From positions 1 through 64,000 of the forward strand of contig JAIBCL010000013.1 in NCBI GenBank assembly GCA_019694165.1: a stretch of DNA of 64,000 bases, read 5' to 3'. Positions 2,760 through 44,524 of this stretch are shown one piece after another. Made by a program: the position numbers and the translations under genes. The stretch is from Verrucomicrobiaceae bacterium. GTDB taxonomy: Bacteria; Verrucomicrobiota; Verrucomicrobiia; Verrucomicrobiales; Verrucomicrobiaceae. Position 1 is the stretch's first letter. Each line of letters starts with the position of its first letter. The notes beneath the pieces are model-generated. The model was not told the DNA's origin. It ran no database searches and was given only the letters and a program-made list of their open reading frames with translations.

Positions 2760-4751
2760 ATGCCGACTCCGTCTTCTTCACCCCACGCCAGCGTTCCCAC
2801 ATCCCACGCTCCCGTCGCCGTAATCGAGAACCTTTACCCGTGCATCGAAGGCGGCAGACATCCGGTGAAGCGGATCGTGGGTGAGCGGCTCGATGTTTTC
2901 GCCGATGTTTTCAAAGACGGCCACGATGTGATTTCCGCCGTGCTCAAGTGGAGGCCCGCCGGCGGCCTGCGCTGGTTTGAAGCGCCCATGCACCATGTGG
3001 ACAATGACCGCTGGACCGGCTCGTGCGCATTTGAAAGCGTGGGCCGCTGGGAATATCAAATCGAGGCATGGGGCGATACGTTCCGCTCGTGGAAGAAATC
3101 CTTCGCCGCGCGCTGTCAGGCGCATGATCCGGACGTGCCCGTGGAGGCGCTGGAGGGGGCGCGATTGTTGCGGGAGGCCGCTATGCGCGCCAAATCCACC
3201 GGCGCGCCTGACGTATGCGCACAGCTCGCCGACATCTCGGAACTCCTGGCGCGGCTGCCGGCGGACGAGTTGCTCGAGGTGCTGCTCTCCGACGAGCTGC
3301 AAACGCTCATCGACCGGCATCCGGACCGCGGCCTGTCGATCTGCTCGCAGACGCTGCGCGTGATCGTCGAGCGTCCGCTGGCGCGCTTCTCGGCATGGTA
3401 CGAGTTCTTCCCGCGGAATGCTGAAGGGCGCGCCGACAAGCACTCCACTTTCCGCGACTGCGTCACCCGGCTCGACGACGCGAAGTCCATGGGCTTCGAC
3501 ATCATCTACTTCCCGCCCATCCACCCCATCGGCGTGACGCACCGCAAAGGGAAAAACAACACGCTCACCGCACTGCCCGGCGATGTCGGCTCGCCCTGGG
3601 CCATCGGCGGCCCCGCAGGCGGGCACTACGACGTGGAGCCGGCGCTCGGCACGATCGACGATTTCGTCTGGCTCGTCGGCGAGGCACGAAAGCGCGGCCT
3701 CGAGATCGCGCTCGACTTTGCGCTGAACTGCTCGCCGGACCATCCCTACGTGAAGACGCATCCCGACTGGTTTTATCAGCGGCCCGACGGCTCCGTCCGC
3801 TACGCCGAGAATCCGCCGAAGAAATATCAGGACATCTATCCGCTGAACTTCCACTGCACCGACTGGCAGAATCTCTGGAGTGAACTCATCAACATCGTCC
3901 TCTTCTGGGCAGACAAGGGCGTGAAGGTCTTTCGTGTGGACAATCCGCACACCAAGCCCGTGGCCTTTTGGGAGCGGCTCATCGCGGAAGTGCAGCGCAA
4001 GGATCCGGACGTGATGTTCCTGTCCGAGGCGTTCACCAAACCGAAGATGATGCAGGTGCTGGGCAAGTCCGGTTTCACGCAGAGCTACACTTACTTCACC
4101 TGGCGTGAATCCCGCGCGGAGCTGCAGGCATACTGCGAGGAACTCACGCGCTCCGACATGCGCTGGTATTACCGGGCGAACTTCTGGCCGAACACGCCCG
4201 ACATCCTGCCCGGCCACCTCCAGAACGCCGGCCCGCAGATGTTCCGCATCCGCGCCGCGCTGGCCGCCACGCTCTCATCATCGTGGGGTCTTTACTCCGG
4301 CTATGAATTCTGCGAAAACGATCCGTATCCCGGCAAGGAGGAGTACAACCACTCCGAAAAGTACGAACTCAAGCAGCGCGACTGGAACGCACCGGGCAAC
4401 ATCAAGGGCTTCATCCGCGAGCTGAACCGCGTGCGCCGCGAGAACGCCGCCATGCAGCTTTACGACAACCTCGTCTTCCACACCGCCGATCACGACAAGA
4501 TCATGTGCTTCTCGCGCTGCACCGAGGATTTCTCCAGCCGCGTGCTGTGCGTGGTGAACATCGACCCGAAGGAGACTGCCTCCTCGAACGTGCATCTCGA
4601 TCTCCCCGCTCTCGGCCTCGACTCCGGCCGTCCCTTCAAGGTCCACGACATGCTCCACGGCAGTTCCTACGAGTGGAGCGGGCGGACGAACTTCGTGTCC
4701 CTGAATCCCAACGGCGTGTCCATGCATCTTTTCCGGGTGGAACAGGTGTAA
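2760..4751 (+). CDS. glgE: Alpha-1,4-glucan:maltose-1-phosphate maltosyltransferase GlgE
   Basis: Adds maltosyl units from alpha-maltose-1-phosphate to alpha-1,4-glucans (GH13_3 family), a cytoplasmic route to glycogen-like glucan. The protein is 663 residues from ATG 2760; GTG 2751 is an alternative three codons upstream. It has an N-terminal beta-sandwich domain (residues ~1-110), a helical insertion, and a catalytic barrel with GFDIIYFPPIHPIG, then FRVDNPHTKP with the nucleophile Asp394 and FLSEAFT with the general acid Glu423. These numbers match those known for Streptomyces GlgE. The usual GH13_3 lysine-rich KGKNN loop is present. glgC lies elsewhere in the window; no treS or glgB is seen. 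The 147-bp stretch before the start shows no clear promoter. Confidence 0.95.
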   Translation: MPTPSSSPHASVPTSHAPVAVIENLYPCIEGGRHPVKRIVGERLDVFADVFKDGHDVISAVLKWRPAGGLRWFEAPMHHVDNDRWTGSCAFESVGRWEYQIEAWGDTFRSWKKSFAARCQAHDPDVPVEALEGARLLREAAMRAKSTGAPDVCAQLADISELLARLPADELLEVLLSDELQTLIDRHPDRGLSICSQTLRVIVERPLARFSAWYEFFPRNAEGRADKHSTFRDCVTRLDDAKSMGFDIIYFPPIHPIGVTHRKGKNNTLTALPGDVGSPWAIGGPAGGHYDVEPALGTIDDFVWLVGEARKRGLEIALDFALNCSPDHPYVKTHPDWFYQRPDGSVRYAENPPKKYQDIYPLNFHCTDWQNLWSELINIVLFWADKGVKVFRVDNPHTKPVAFWERLIAEVQRKDPDVMFLSEAFTKPKMMQVLGKSGFTQSYTYFTWRESRAELQAYCEELTRSDMRWYYRANFWPNTPDILPGHLQNAGPQMFRIRAALAATLSSSWGLYSGYEFCENDPYPGKEEYNHSEKYELKQRDWNAPGNIKGFIRELNRVRRENAAMQLYDNLVFHTADHDKIMCFSRCTEDFSSRVLCVVNIDPKETASSNVHLDLPALGLDSGRPFKVHDMLHGSSYEWSGRTNFVSLNPNGVSMHLFRVEQV

Positions 4752-4812
4752 GGCGGGATTCAGAATGCGGGATACGGCACTGAATCGACGGCATCGCCTC
4801 ATCTACTCCGCC

Positions 4813-6042
4813 ATGCGCACGCTGATCCTTCTCATCCTGCTCGCCGCCATCGGCTGCGTGCTCGATCGCGAGCAGCGCGGCGGCCGTTTCCAGCGCGCGG
4901 ATGACTTGTTTCTCGATTTCCTCGTCGCCAATGCGCGCGAGAGATTTGAAGCCGTTGGCGGCGGCGCGTCCGACCAGGTGGTGTTTGTGCGCATGCGCGA
5001 GGAGGACCGCGCCGAATACGCGAGCTGGCCGCCCGCGCCCCTCGACTGGCAGATGGTGCTCAAAGGGCTGGCACGCTTTGAGCCGGACGTGGTGGTAATC
5101 GCGACGCCGCTCACCTGGGGGCTGCCGGCGCCGGAGTTTGTCTCCCAGGCCGGCCAGGCCTTGCTGCCTTTTCCCAGCGTCGTGATGGCCGTGACCGGAC
5201 GGACGGACACTGGCGAGACCGCCGGCAATGTTGCATCGGCCGGTGCCGCGGCCGTTCTCAAAGAGAATATGCCGGCCATCGCGCATCTCGACGGTGAGGC
5301 CGGACTGCTGCCGCTTTTGCAGGAGATCACGGCACTGCCTGACGAAGGTGTGCGCAGCCAGATGGAACTGGGAATCGTCGTTGCTCCCGCGGACGATCCT
5401 AAGACGCAGCAGCAGCCGCTGCTCGTGCGCTGCGGGGACTTCGTGGCTCCGTCCCTGGTGCTGCAAGCCCTGGCGCGCCACAGCCGGACGCCGTATGCAC
5501 ACCAGAGATTCCGCATCGGCGCGGGAGCGGGCGCACATCTCGGAGGCGGCATCTTCGTGCCGCTTCAGAACGACGGCAGCCTCGCCGTGCGCCCCTCCAC
5601 TGCGGTGGCATCGGTGAATGCGCTGGATTTCATCGCTGGTGATCTGGCGGAAAGCCTGAACGCGGCTGACAAGGCGAAGCTCGGCAGGAACAAGATCATC
5701 GTCGTCGGCATCGACAACGACTCGCCGCACCCCTCCTCCGCACGCATGCAGGCAGGCGCGCTGGCAGCCGTGCTCGCACTGCCGCGCATTCACGCCATCG
5801 GGCAGATCGAGCGCTGGATCGTATGCGCCATCGCAGCCGTGCTCGGCTGCCTGTTGCTGCGTCACCGTGGCGGCAAGGCATTCCGCTCCGGACTGCTGCT
5901 CATCTTCGCCGCGCTCGTCGCGAGTTTCCTGATCTTCCGGTCACAGCTCATGTGGTTCCCTCCAGCCGTGCCGTCCGCCCTTCTCGCTGCCAGCACATTG
6001 TTCGCCATGCTCTTTGGCCGCAAGCCGTCGTCGGCAGCATAG
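4813..6042 (+). CDS. CHASE2-like sensor-domain membrane protein without output domain
   Basis: A 409-residue membrane protein. An N-terminal signal/anchor (MRTLILLILLAAIGCVL) leads into a long extracytoplasmic region. The segment ending NKIIVVGIDND followed by ARMQAGALAAVLALPRI resembles the end of CHASE2 domains (a KIVLIG-type strand, then a helix). Closely spaced hydrophobic segments at the C-terminus (WIVCAIAAVLGCLLL, LLLIFAALVASFLIF, VPSALLAASTLFAMLF) match the three membrane helices that normally follow CHASE2. The protein stops there, with no kinase, cyclase or phosphatase domain. An upstream ATG at 4765 in the same frame would precede the signal, so 4813 is preferred. It may signal through a separate partner; assignment rests on pattern recognition only. 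Confidence 0.65.
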   Translation: MRTLILLILLAAIGCVLDREQRGGRFQRADDLFLDFLVANARERFEAVGGGASDQVVFVRMREEDRAEYASWPPAPLDWQMVLKGLARFEPDVVVIATPLTWGLPAPEFVSQAGQALLPFPSVVMAVTGRTDTGETAGNVASAGAAAVLKENMPAIAHLDGEAGLLPLLQEITALPDEGVRSQMELGIVVAPADDPKTQQQPLLVRCGDFVAPSLVLQALARHSRTPYAHQRFRIGAGAGAHLGGGIFVPLQNDGSLAVRPSTAVASVNALDFIAGDLAESLNAADKAKLGRNKIIVVGIDNDSPHPSSARMQAGALAAVLALPRIHAIGQIERWIVCAIAAVLGCLLLRHRGGKAFRSGLLLIFAALVASFLIFRSQLMWFPPAVPSALLAASTLFAMLFGRKPSSAA

Positions 6043-41163: not shown

Positions 41164-41324
41164 GACGGCAGGAGAGCGAGGTCGTCGGACAATGTCGGGA
41201 TGACCAAACGTCGAAGCCGACCGGTCGAGTGCGGCGGGGAGCGGGTCGTTCGCTCAAGCGGCATCATCGCCCCACCGCCCGGCTGTTGGGGGGATCGGAC
41301 GTGGGAAGGCCTTCGGACCTCAGC

Positions 41325-41354
41325 AGGACGAGCGGGCTTCGCCACACTCGTCCT
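41325..41354. repeat. REP-like palindrome between convergent genes
   Basis: AGGACGAG (41325-41332) pairs perfectly with CTCGTCCT (41347-41354), enclosing a second small stem GGC-TTC-GCC. It overlaps the stop codon of the STAND gene and lies between two convergent genes, so it may act as a bidirectional terminator or a dispersed palindromic repeat. No other copy was found by eye in the window. Confidence 0.5.
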
Positions 41355-44256
41355 ACGTTCCAAACGCGTGTTCGAGCTGGGCGAACAGGTTGGCCAGTTG
41401 CGGATCAAAGTGCAGCCCGCGCTGCTTCATGCCGCGCAGCACCTCGTAGCAGGCCCGCAGCTCGCGCCCGGCCATCGCTTCGTCGCCGCTCTTGTTCGCG
41501 AACTGGTAGAGCTTGAAGTGCGACACGGACAAATCGCGCTGCCACTCGGCGTTGGCCGGGTCACTTTGGGCGAGGCGTTGGGCGATGGCCTTGGCGTCGG
41601 TGAACCATCGCAAGCCGGCGGGCAGATCGCCCTGGGCGATGGCGAGGTCGCCGAGCTTGTTGAGCGACACGGACAAATCGCGCTGCCACCCGGCGTTGGC
41701 CGGGTCGCTCTGGGCGAGGCGTTGGAGAATGCCGTGGCACTCGGTGTGCCAGCGCAAGGCGGCGGGCAGATCGCCCTGGGCGATGGCGAGGTCGCCGAGC
41801 TTCTCCAGCGACACGGACAAATCGCGCTGCCACCCGGCGTTGGCCGGGTCGCTCTGGGCGAGGCGTTGGGCGATGTCCAAGTCCTCGGTGAACCAGCGCA
41901 AGGCGGCGGGCAGATCGCCCTGGGCGATGGCAAGGCCGCCCAGCTTGTTGAGCGACACGGACAAATCGCGCTGCCACCCGGCGTTGGCCGGGTCGCTCTG
42001 GGCGAGGCGTTGGAGAATGCCGTGGCACTCGGTGTGCCAGCGCAAGGCGGCGGGCAGATCTCCCTGGGCGATGGCGAGGTCGCCCAGCTTGTTGAGCGAC
42101 ACGGACAAATCGCGCTGCCACGCGGCGTTGGCCGGGTCGCTCTGGGCGAGGCGTTGGAGAATGCCGTGGCACTCGGTGTGCCAGCGCAAGGCGGCGGGCA
42201 GATCTCCCTGGGCGATGGCGAGGTCGCCCAGCTTGTTGAGCGACACGGACAAATCGCGCTGCCACGCGGCGTTGGCCGGGTCGCTCTGGGCGAGGCGTTG
42301 GGCCTGTTCATGCACTTGCTCGGCGAAGCCTCGGGCATCGGGCAGTGTCCGATAGATCACGAGCTTCTCGGTGACGAAGATCGCATCGTTGATCAGCGAG
42401 GCATGGGGTTGGTCGCTTGATTGCAGTCGATGTGGCAGCCCGTTCATCAGCGCTGCCAGTTCCCATGCCTGCGGTGCCTCTTGCTGGCGATAGACGACAT
42501 CTGCTCGCTGACCGAGATACGCATCAAGCACTGGCACCACTTCCTTTGCATGCTCCCCCACATGCGCCGCCACCAGCCGATGCACGCGCGCGATCTCCGG
42601 TTCGTCGCTGGTGGTGAGCAGGCGCAGGCCGGTGAGCTGGCGCTGCACGGACTGCCAGGGATCGCTGCCGAAGTCGCCGGGCTGGGCAAGCTCGGCAAAC
42701 TTCTGCATCGTCAGCTCGCGCAACCAAGGCCAGGGCACGCAGTCGGGCGGGAGCTGGGTGGCGAGGTGCAGTGCGTAGCGCGCGGGCGGGCTGAGGCGTT
42801 GCTGGGTTTGATCCAGGATGTGGCCGAGCAGCTTCGTCTGGTGCAGGAGCGCGGCTTTGACCTCGTCATCGCTGGCGACCATGCGGTCGATGCTGATGAG
42901 GCCCAGGCGCTCCAGGTCGGCGAGGAAGGCGACGGGTGTGACCTCCGGGTGCAGACCGAGGAACACGGCCACCTGCTCCACCGCCAGCGTGAAGCCGCCG
43001 AGCGCGCGCACGATCTGCCGCGCGGCCAGCTCCTGGGCGGCATCCGCAAACAACGGTGTGCCGTGCTCCAGGTCGGTGATGCGGCCTGCGGCATCGCGCG
43101 GCGGCTGGTGATCGCGGAGGAGCGCGAGCGCGGTGTCGTCATCCAGCGCATCGACGGCGACGAGGCCGAGCCGGTCCTTCTGCCCTTTCAAATCCAGCCG
43201 CGTGGTGGCGACGATGCGCAGCCAGCCCGCGCCCATGCCGCCGGGCAGTGTGGCGAGTTGCGCCGGGCTGAGGAGGTCGGGCTCGGAGACATTGTCCAGC
43301 AGGATGAGGCAGGCGGCGCCGCGATCAGGATCACGCTCCGCCACGGTCTGCGATCTGGCTTTGAGATGCGCGAGCACGCCGCGACCGAGCAGCGCGGCAT
43401 CGTTCTTCTCCGCCTCGCTCGGCGTGAAGCCCAGCTCGCGCTCCCAGGCGAGTTTGCCAATGAGCGGCAGCAGTTCCTTCGCGTGCTCGGCACCGAGCGA
43501 CCACAGACCCGCCGGGTAGCTGTCCGCAAAGCTGTGCGCGTAGGCCACGGCGAGTTCGGTCTTGCCCATGCCGCCGAGTCCCTGCACGGCGGTGACCACA
43601 CCGATGCGCCCGAGGCCGAGGCTCTCATGCAGCAGGCGCAGCTCCTCGGTGCGGCCGAGGAAGTGCGGGTTCTGCCAGCGCAGGTTCCCCGGTGCGGACA
43701 TGGCGCGGCGCGCGCGCTGCATCCGCTCCCACAGCGTGGCACCGAGCGCGGCCAGACGTGCCTTCACATCCTCGCGCTGCAAGGCCTGCGGTCCTTCTTT
43801 GAACCAGGGGCGCACGTCGGTGTAGTTGTGCCGCATCAACTGCTCGTGCCAGTCGCGGGCGATCTTTTGCTCGTCCGCCGCGCCGGGCACTTCGATGAAG
43901 TAAACCTGCGCGATGCTGTCGCTGCCCATGAGCTGATGCACCTGACGGCGCACGTATTCGCGGAACTCCCACTCGCAGCAGGTGCTCTTGAAGTAGTCGG
44001 GCGAAAGGCAGACGAGCAGGATCTTCGAGGACTGCAAGGCACCGAGGATGCGATGCCGCCAGTCGTCGGCATCCTTGATCTCCTGGGTGTCAAAGAAGAT
44101 GCGCAACGGCGCCGTGCTGAACTTGCGATGGTCCTGCCAGATGTGATCCTTCAACGCAGTGACCCAGCCGGAGGCGTTGTCCTTCCGTGAGTAGGAGATG
44201 AACAGATCATACTGCGTGGGCGTGGCCCCGGTGGTGATGGGAGGAGCGTCAGGCAT
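41353..44256 (-). CDS. TIR - NB-ARC - TPR repeat STAND protein
   Basis: A 967-residue cytoplasmic protein with the plan of immune STAND NTPases. Residues ~15-160 are a TIR domain (QYDLFISYSRKDN; the CEWEFREYV segment near 94-102 carries the probable catalytic Glu for NAD cleavage). The NB-ARC ATPase follows, with P-loop GLGGMGKT at 226-233, Walker B-like ACLILLDNVSE near 315-325, RIVATTRLD near 348 and a GLPL-like ALGGFTLAVEQ. Residues ~640-915 are 48-residue TPR-like repeats (PANAxWQRDLSVSLNKLGDLAIAQGDLPAALRW). A short helical tail ends the protein. The likely role is sensing of phage or stress through the repeats and killing by the TIR domain; this is inferred from family knowledge. Confidence 0.88.
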   Translation of the reverse strand: MPDAPPITTGATPTQYDLFISYSRKDNASGWVTALKDHIWQDHRKFSTAPLRIFFDTQEIKDADDWRHRILGALQSSKILLVCLSPDYFKSTCCEWEFREYVRRQVHQLMGSDSIAQVYFIEVPGAADEQKIARDWHEQLMRHNYTDVRPWFKEGPQALQREDVKARLAALGATLWERMQRARRAMSAPGNLRWQNPHFLGRTEELRLLHESLGLGRIGVVTAVQGLGGMGKTELAVAYAHSFADSYPAGLWSLGAEHAKELLPLIGKLAWERELGFTPSEAEKNDAALLGRGVLAHLKARSQTVAERDPDRGAACLILLDNVSEPDLLSPAQLATLPGGMGAGWLRIVATTRLDLKGQKDRLGLVAVDALDDDTALALLRDHQPPRDAAGRITDLEHGTPLFADAAQELAARQIVRALGGFTLAVEQVAVFLGLHPEVTPVAFLADLERLGLISIDRMVASDDEVKAALLHQTKLLGHILDQTQQRLSPPARYALHLATQLPPDCVPWPWLRELTMQKFAELAQPGDFGSDPWQSVQRQLTGLRLLTTSDEPEIARVHRLVAAHVGEHAKEVVPVLDAYLGQRADVVYRQQEAPQAWELAALMNGLPHRLQSSDQPHASLINDAIFVTEKLVIYRTLPDARGFAEQVHEQAQRLAQSDPANAAWQRDLSVSLNKLGDLAIAQGDLPAALRWHTECHGILQRLAQSDPANAAWQRDLSVSLNKLGDLAIAQGDLPAALRWHTECHGILQRLAQSDPANAGWQRDLSVSLNKLGGLAIAQGDLPAALRWFTEDLDIAQRLAQSDPANAGWQRDLSVSLEKLGDLAIAQGDLPAALRWHTECHGILQRLAQSDPANAGWQRDLSVSLNKLGDLAIAQGDLPAGLRWFTDAKAIAQRLAQSDPANAEWQRDLSVSHFKLYQFANKSGDEAMAGRELRACYEVLRGMKQRGLHFDPQLANLFAQLEHAFGT
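41520..42310 (-). repeat. 144-bp tandem repeats encoding TPR-like units
   Basis: The same landmark, GCGACACGGACAAATCGCGC, starts at 41520 (first base differing in context), 41664, 41808, 41952, 42096 and 42240, exactly 144 bp apart. Each unit encodes 48 residues. The two at the N-terminal side are nearly identical in DNA, and the outer copies diverge more. The repeats keep frame. Confidence 0.9.
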
Positions 44257-44372
44257 GGCGGGAGATACGCTGAGACGGCGCTGAATTGCAAAGCGAAGCT
44301 GCGCGCAATGCCCTGCGCCACGCCCTCTTCCCGCGCACGAGCCGGGCCGACTTCACCACGCCCGGGCCGTGC

Positions 44373-44524
44373 CAGGGCTTACGCATGAACCGAAAGCGCA
44401 AGCCTCAAATCTACGATTTGCCCCGCAGATTCAGAATTCCACAAATGGGTTCAGAAGAACTCCAATCCGTGGTTGTCCTGAATCCGTGGGAATTCACTCA
44501 GAAGCAATTCATGCGTAAACCCTG
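44373..44524. mobile_element. MITE-like element with 17-bp inverted repeats and 8-bp target duplication
   Basis: 152 bp bounded by CAGGGCTTACGCATGAA (44373-44389) and TTCATGCGTAAACCCTG (44508-44524), inverted with one mismatch. GGCCGTGC flanks both sides exactly (44365-44372 and 44525-44532), an 8-bp target duplication. The inside has further partial inverted repeats around GAATTCCAC / GTGGGAATTC. There is no coding capacity for a transposase. The CAGGG ends and 8-bp duplication recall ISAs1-type elements, but this is from memory. Its right end contains the ATG at 44511 that may start the next gene. Confidence 0.8.

Follow-up and report, generated by a model that had tools for sequence, protein, structure and literature searches.

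How single-gene bacterial STAND receptors change what they sense is a largely open question. It is raised by a gene in the window, which here means the whole 64,000-nucleotide stretch of Verrucomicrobiaceae DNA that was analysed, on contig C56 of a 7.8-Mb draft genome in 66 contigs. The sensor encoded by this gene seems to change as short stretches of DNA are copied, reordered and exchanged, and only a few of its codons vary freely. The gene and its N-terminal parts are as follows.

41353–44256, minus strand: TIR – NB-ARC-type STAND NTPase – TPR receptor gene, an open reading frame of 967 residues with an ATG start at 44256
43942–44202, minus strand: TIR domain, residues 19–105 by TIR_2, with E97 lining up with the C-x-x-E Glu of plant TIR domains
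42559–43674, minus strand: STAND NTPase region, residues 195–566, with the P-loop GLGGMGKT at 226–233 and DNV, TTR and HRL motifs

The TIR domain is detected by the Pfam models TIR_2 (E 1.7e-11, 45.1 bits against a cut-off of 28) and TIR (24.2 bits against 21.3). E97 is invariant across seven aligned relatives, and its counterpart in the plant C-x-x-E motif is the catalytic Glu. The TIR domain thus appears to carry an NADase-type active-site signature, and NAD cleavage is a prediction from it. The Pfam NB-ARC model gives no match to the window protein itself at E 0.1, and AAA_16 reaches E 0.005 and 17.8 bits, against a cut-off of 32.6. NB-ARC matches five of the seven relatives, the best at 9.9e-13. 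The NTPase region also matches NCBIfam FxSxx_TPR (E 4e-23), though under the cut-off of that family. Residues G228, G229, G231, K232 and T233 of the P-loop are invariant in all seven, as are TTR and HR. Membership of the STAND/NB-ARC class is therefore indicated through the relatives, the P-loop and the STAND motifs. A profile of the seven relatives compared with solved structures finds the plant TIR-NLR Roq1, the bacterial STAND protein AfsR, plant TIR domains and the TPRs of kinesin light chain.

The C-terminal region matches TPR_12 (57.3 bits) and TPR_10 (54.4 bits), both above the Pfam cut-offs. AF2 models the last 374 residues from sequence alone with a pLDDT of 89.6, rising to about 95 in the array, where each unit forms two helices of about 20 residues; helix A occupies positions 10–29, and helix B starts at position 33 and continues into the following unit. 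Among solved structures, those closest in fold to the array are designed consensus TPRs and TPR superhelices that bind ligands, LGN (TM 0.70) being one. In the full-length AF2 model, built from two sequences, pLDDT is mostly below 50 outside the array, so the placement of the N-terminal domains rests on sequence. The Pfam matches, the modelled array and the profile matches of the relatives bear out the preliminary description, in which the repeats were TPR-like and held the presumed sensor position of a TIR-STAND protein.

The array itself consists of the following parts, numbered in the direction of the protein.

42154–42297, minus strand: TPR unit 1, type A, helix B ending HTECHGILQ
42010–42153, minus strand: TPR unit 2, 144/144 bp identical to unit 1
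41866–42009, minus strand: TPR unit 3, type B, FTEDLDIAQ
41722–41865, minus strand: TPR unit 4, type A helix B, with its own variant LEKLG in helix A
41578–41721, minus strand: TPR unit 5, type C, FTDAKAIAQ
41434–41577, minus strand: half unit 6, repeat-like for the first 19 or so residues, then degenerate and running into the C-terminal cap
41356–41433, minus strand: C-terminal cap (GMKQRGLHFDP...), with similar caps in two receptors from another genome, G048a and G048b

Tandem Repeats Finder reports one strong array in the window, at 41520–42301, with a period of 144, 5.4 copies, 92% matches, no indels and a score of 1315 that far outranks every other array there. Consistently, the landmark RLAQSDPANA occurs six times in the 967-residue protein at a spacing of exactly 48 residues. 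Six landmarks 144 bp apart had been read earlier as six near-identical 48-residue units. The spacing and the near-identity hold, but only five units are full length (42297–41578), and the sixth (41577–41434) is repeat-like for about half its length and then gives way to the cap; five units and a half thus cover 41434–42297 at a spacing of 144 bp. Protein identity among the five full units is 83–100%, units 1, 2 and 4 being 96–100% identical. The array shows the more than 85% repeat identity over at least 100 residues by which NLRs with high internal repeat conservation are recognised.

The identity extends to the DNA, as had been proposed. The alignment of the units places full-unit pairs 0–17 bp apart; units 1 and 2 do not differ, and all other pairs differ at 6–17 bp, are 88–96% identical and have a dS of 0.09–0.14. 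At an offset of 144 bp, exact repetition extends over 179 bp at most. Where units share a residue for which a synonymous choice exists, the same codon is used in 372 of 402 cases (93%); when codons were redrawn 2000 times from the rest of the gene, the mean agreement was 49% and the maximum 59%. Since 93% agreement stands against 49% expected, the identity lies at the DNA level and not in the protein alone. Protein constraint cannot account for it, and recent duplication or homogenisation can. A recent expansion of the 144-bp array is thus well supported by the codon agreement together with the identity of units 1 and 2 and the 88–96% identity of the other pairs, in line with the recent duplication first suggested.

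The unit types are in the order A A B A' C. Codons 35–48, which encode the HTECHGILQ end of helix B, show no base difference among units 1, 2 and 4, and codons 11 and 31 of unit 4 match those of units 3 and 5. In the simplest history, two units were duplicated together and A was then copied once more, recently; exchange within units may also have contributed.

The number of units is less secure than their identity. The count of five units in the window is uncertain because the assembly is a draft and the repeats are near the read length. The comparison of unit number within the species covers one genome, so that we infer gain or loss of units in this species from the sequence of the array; the one same-genus genome examined has no match to the receptor gene. 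Unit gain and loss probably occurs as a process in bacteria, as seen in Streptomyces, where a TPR gene of plasmid pGBA1 has one identical 138-bp unit fewer than that of pGBA1N from the same strain, the genes being otherwise identical; this difference may be assembly-derived, and the array is only distantly related to that of the window. The two loci are 3914–5737 and 3914–5599, and the extra unit is present in pGBA1N and three S. albidoflavus plasmids relative to pGBA1. The Streptomyces gene, whose 138-bp units are near-identical, adjoins recombinase and Tn3 transposase genes, and a second array of identical 126-bp units is present. Sinorhizobium plasmids with TIR-TPR genes were set aside as evidence on unit number, as they apparently represent one plasmid in several isolates and have weak unit matches. 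In the Verrucomicrobiaceae genomes, arrays lie at contig ends in G035 (four ends) and G433, and gaps fall inside arrays in G446 and G433, as expected of repeats that short reads do not span. Fungal NLR repeat arrays are likewise not recovered from short reads (PMC12222747), and unit counts of such genes in short-read genomes are not to be trusted.

Amino-acid change within the unit is concentrated at a few positions. Across eight genes, mean change per unit position is far more uneven than in a per-gene permutation (p < 0.0002). The most variable positions are 25, 21, 11, 45, 43, 47, 22 and 39, of which codons 11, 21, 22 and 25 lie in helix A and codons 39, 43, 45 and 47 in helix B; positions 14, 20, 24, 27, 30, 31, 32 and 46 show no change in any of the eight genes. 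A pN/pS estimate at the six most variable positions was discarded as circular, the positions having been chosen on the same data. It was replaced by a leave-one-out version, in which the eight most variable positions were taken from the other genes and pN/pS was then scored in the gene left out. At positions learned in this way, the window gene has a pN of 0.26 and a pS of 0.00, and the rest of the unit has a pN of 0.039 and a pS of 0.106. In seven of the eight genes pN is higher than pS at these learned sites, narrowly so in G048a and G436; the comparison is a count of sites, the per-gene numbers are small, and some of the eight genes are related or come from one genome and hence are not fully independent. 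By direct reading, the array of a second receptor of the same genome, on contig C43, likewise has most of its variation at the helix A N/E position and at the end of helix B. Recurring amino-acid change at the same positions is suggestive of diversifying selection.

By register, unit positions 21 and 25 correspond to helix A positions 5 and 9 of the TPR numbering, which in TPR proteins contact ligands on the concave side. This register suggests that the hypervariable sites of the window receptor lie on the concave face, and the selected sites of fungal NLR TPRs are likewise on the concave side (PMC4986451).

The array is not tied to one kind of receptor. The C43 paralogue (G000:C43, 3002–3664) is a second TIR-STAND receptor with a near-identical array, whose period is 153 (51 residues; 94% matches by Tandem Repeats Finder); its core is 50% identical to that of the window receptor, yet the array types differ (48 against 51 residues). 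Another paralogue in the genome, on C19, has a 126-bp period of 42 residues. Conversely, the TIR-NTPase gene G048a has a core only 34% identical and the same 48-residue unit type. Array type thus does not follow the receptor core. The 48-residue type also occurs in G048b and G449, whose N-terminal parts were classed as DUF4062-like on visual inspection of the sequence, in an NTPase gene from G005, and in genes of G030, G035, G436 and G446 that begin with other N-terminal parts. Units of Methylobacterium and Thauera plasmid genes belong to the same wider 48-residue family.

Its distribution is patchy. A strict profile search gives strong matches to the array type in 9 of 68 family genomes. Unit counts were taken from an HMM scan, an initial regular-expression scan having given many false positives. 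The whole-protein search of named GTDB contigs returned a single relative, a Myxococcales MAG with the nearest core (55%) and a diverged array; a search across the phylum added three genomes. No relative was found among viral contigs, and together with the plasmid search this leaves a phage or plasmid origin of the receptor gene unsupported.

Within genes the units are homogenised. Those of the window share 0.83 nucleotide identity with one another, their average identity to the units of any other gene does not exceed 0.74, and the nearest neighbour of every window unit is another unit of its own gene. Within-gene identity is mostly 0.82–0.94, the lower values being 0.75 in G030, 0.73 in G035c and 0.54 in G048b. 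Between genes, the G048 TIR gene and its DUF4062-like companion have 487 bp in common at 86%, reaching the end of the frame; in the DUF4062-like gene the match starts partway through a unit, and the units upstream of it have diverged. The units at the four G035 contig ends resemble one another about as closely as units within one gene, though some of these ends may belong to one broken gene. The preliminary description contained neither the exchange of units between receptors nor the hypervariable positions that the genes have in common, nor the accessory insertion site described below. A broader picture can be offered tentatively, and it has somewhat less than an even chance of being right: 48-residue TPR units and capped array ends may form a common, interchangeable stock in the family and recombine between receptors whose N-terminal modules differ (TIR-NB-ARC, DUF4062-like and others), with hypervariable codons under diversifying selection, as a bacterial counterpart of the fungal het-type repeat-shuffling repertoire.

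The receptor gene occupies an interval defined by comparison with relatives.

41164–44374, no strand assigned: accessory slot between a Mur ligase (mpl-like) gene and an AspA-like gene

In seven relatives (G002, G003, G007, G012, G038, G039 and G041) the Mur ligase and AspA-like matches are 19–105 bp apart, and in the same-genus genome G001 (G001:C56, 785–3400) the interval holds an AAA_15/AAA_21 ATPase gene and a UPF0175 gene, followed by a probable PIN-toxin-like frame. Because the slot is empty in seven relatives and holds other genes in G001, it is an accessory site; it is possibly an integration spot for defence or toxin-antitoxin genes. A scan of the neighbours recognises no defence island around the receptor gene, the neighbours being housekeeping genes. 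Matches to PADLOC models are weak (PDC-S66, 28.7 bits over the TIR part; ThsB, also weak), and none is a strong match to a known anti-phage system protein with partners.

Taken together, the gene probably encodes an accessory intracellular receptor of immune type, a TIR-NB-ARC-TPR protein of the plant-NLR-like STAND class, whose TPR solenoid is the presumed sensor and evolves by recombination of 144-bp repeats, by change at few variable codons and by exchange of array ends. We infer the immune role from the architecture and the relatives. A foreign or altered protein, such as a phage or other non-self protein, would bind in the groove of the C-terminal solenoid; the NTPase would then open and oligomerise, driven by NTP, and the clustered TIR domains would consume NAD or make a signal nucleotide, an output that would stop or kill the cell. 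Sensing, assembly, TIR output, cell death or arrest and the triggers are all modelled on known STAND and NLR proteins (PMC7159879, PMC10907252). On the evolutionary side, the array has expanded recently and been homogenised within the gene, in this reading by recombination between the 144-bp DNA repeats, and single-unit and probably two-unit duplications are visible in the order A A B A' C. The hypervariable helix codons change residue in an otherwise conserved unit, and array ends pass between receptors that differ in their N-terminal parts. Unit number, unit order and the hypervariable positions could thereby each shift the specificity of the sensor.

The near-identity of the units might instead be a mutational by-product, GC-rich repeats recombining readily and the array being tolerated without selection for sensor diversity. 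The extension of within-gene homogenisation to synonymous sites would fit this, as would the homogenised arrays of several related genes with unrelated N-terminal parts. However, a by-product sits poorly with amino-acid change at the same codons in eight genes, with positions 14, 20, 24, 27, 30–32 and 46 never changing, and with the leave-one-out excess of pN over pS, even allowing for its narrowness in G048a and G436 and the partial dependence of the genes; we regard it as rather unlikely. A concern of another kind is that the unit count, and perhaps the identity of units 1 and 2, reflects collapse or false expansion during assembly. The draft state of the genome, units about as long as a short read, the 179-bp exact repeat, the broken or gapped arrays of G035, G433 and G446 and the known unreliability of short-read NLR arrays (PMC12222747) all lend it some weight. 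Against it, the window contig runs through the array, and since units 3, 4 and 5 differ from one another and the frame is continuous, the repetition is real; complete plasmid records also hold similar arrays. An artefact of this kind is unlikely.

The protein could also be a signalling or regulatory STAND protein, like AfsR or the TPR proteins linked to FxSxx peptides, and not an immune receptor. FxSxx_TPR (NF040586) is its best NCBIfam match (E 4e-23), AfsR is among the profile matches, and no defence genes adjoin the receptor gene. But the FxSxx_TPR score is 81.8 bits, far under the cut-off of 300, the scanned neighbours include no peptide-processing or MoxR-vWA genes, and no DNA-binding domain was found in the receptor. 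The N-terminal TIR domain with its conserved Glu, the patchy presence of strong array-type matches in the family and the accessory slot also argue against a regulatory protein, which we consider improbable.

An immune-type receptor with a recombining TPR sensor would have several known counterparts, fungal NLRs and cyanobacterial STAND propellers being the closest. Dyrka et al. 2014 (PMC4986451) described fungal NLRs whose TPR, ANK or WD repeats are highly conserved internally. They resemble the window receptor in their tripartite layout of effector, NTPase and repeats, in repeats more than 85% identical, in change confined to few helix positions, in suspected repeat exchange between genes and in the pairing of various effector domains with one repeat type. 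They differ in being fungal, in their other effectors and in that repeat number polymorphism has been measured there; their TPR units were modelled on kinesin light chain, and the window units have 48 residues. In cyanobacteria, STAND proteins with near-identical WD40 blades are known (WRAP; Dunin-Horkawicz et al. 2014, as described in PMC9218822). According to that description, WRAP proteins share with the window receptor a bacterial STAND ATPase, an association with TIR and very recently amplified C-terminal repeats, and have been proposed to serve innate immunity with fast turnover; their repeats, however, are beta-propeller blades and their TIR is on a partner protein, whereas the window receptor has a TPR solenoid and carries its TIR in the same chain.

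TIR-AP-ATPase-TPR proteins are part of the bacterial FxSxx / VMAP ternary conflict systems (Kaur et al. 2020, PMC7159879). They have a TIR domain, an NB-ARC-like AP-ATPase and C-terminal TPRs in common with the window receptor, which matches FxSxx_TPR in sequence. Unlike it, they are coupled to peptide-processing and vWA-MoxR genes, none of which is seen among the neighbours scanned, and the score of the match is far below the cut-off. Plant TIR-NLRs such as Roq1, RPP1 and L6 share the order of TIR and NB-ARC, profile homology and the C-x-x-E motif, but have leucine-rich repeats in place of TPRs. Near-identical repeat arrays in NLR-like proteins are thus already known from fungi and from cyanobacterial WD40 proteins with STAND and TIR, as is the TIR-AP-ATPase-TPR architecture in bacteria. 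A non-exhaustive literature search found no description of bacterial TIR-NB-ARC proteins that have near-identical TPR arrays and exchange units with other classes of receptor. A sensor that changes by copying, reordering and exchange of units would mean that bacteria, too, diversify receptors in a way studied in fungi. This reading predicts that unit counts differ among strains and that the ligand changes when units or the named residues are swapped.

The surroundings of the gene offer some further observations. Directly upstream of the receptor gene, at 44375–44522, is a dispersed element about 148 bp long, which overlaps the 5' part of the mechanically called AspA-like open reading frame. 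It has terminal inverted repeats, GGGCTTACGCATGAA ... TTCATGCGTAAACCC, with one mismatch, and looks like a MITE; at least 40 genomic places are listed, including this one, the others being 86–99% identical. It is present on one side of the receptor gene only and hence gives no evidence of having moved it. The genes of the genome include a planctomycete-type cytochrome domain and sulfatases, a content that may point to the Planctomycetes-Verrucomicrobia group. The window itself begins inside a tmRNA gene (Rfam RF00023, 121 bits), of which it contains the truncated part at positions 1–313.
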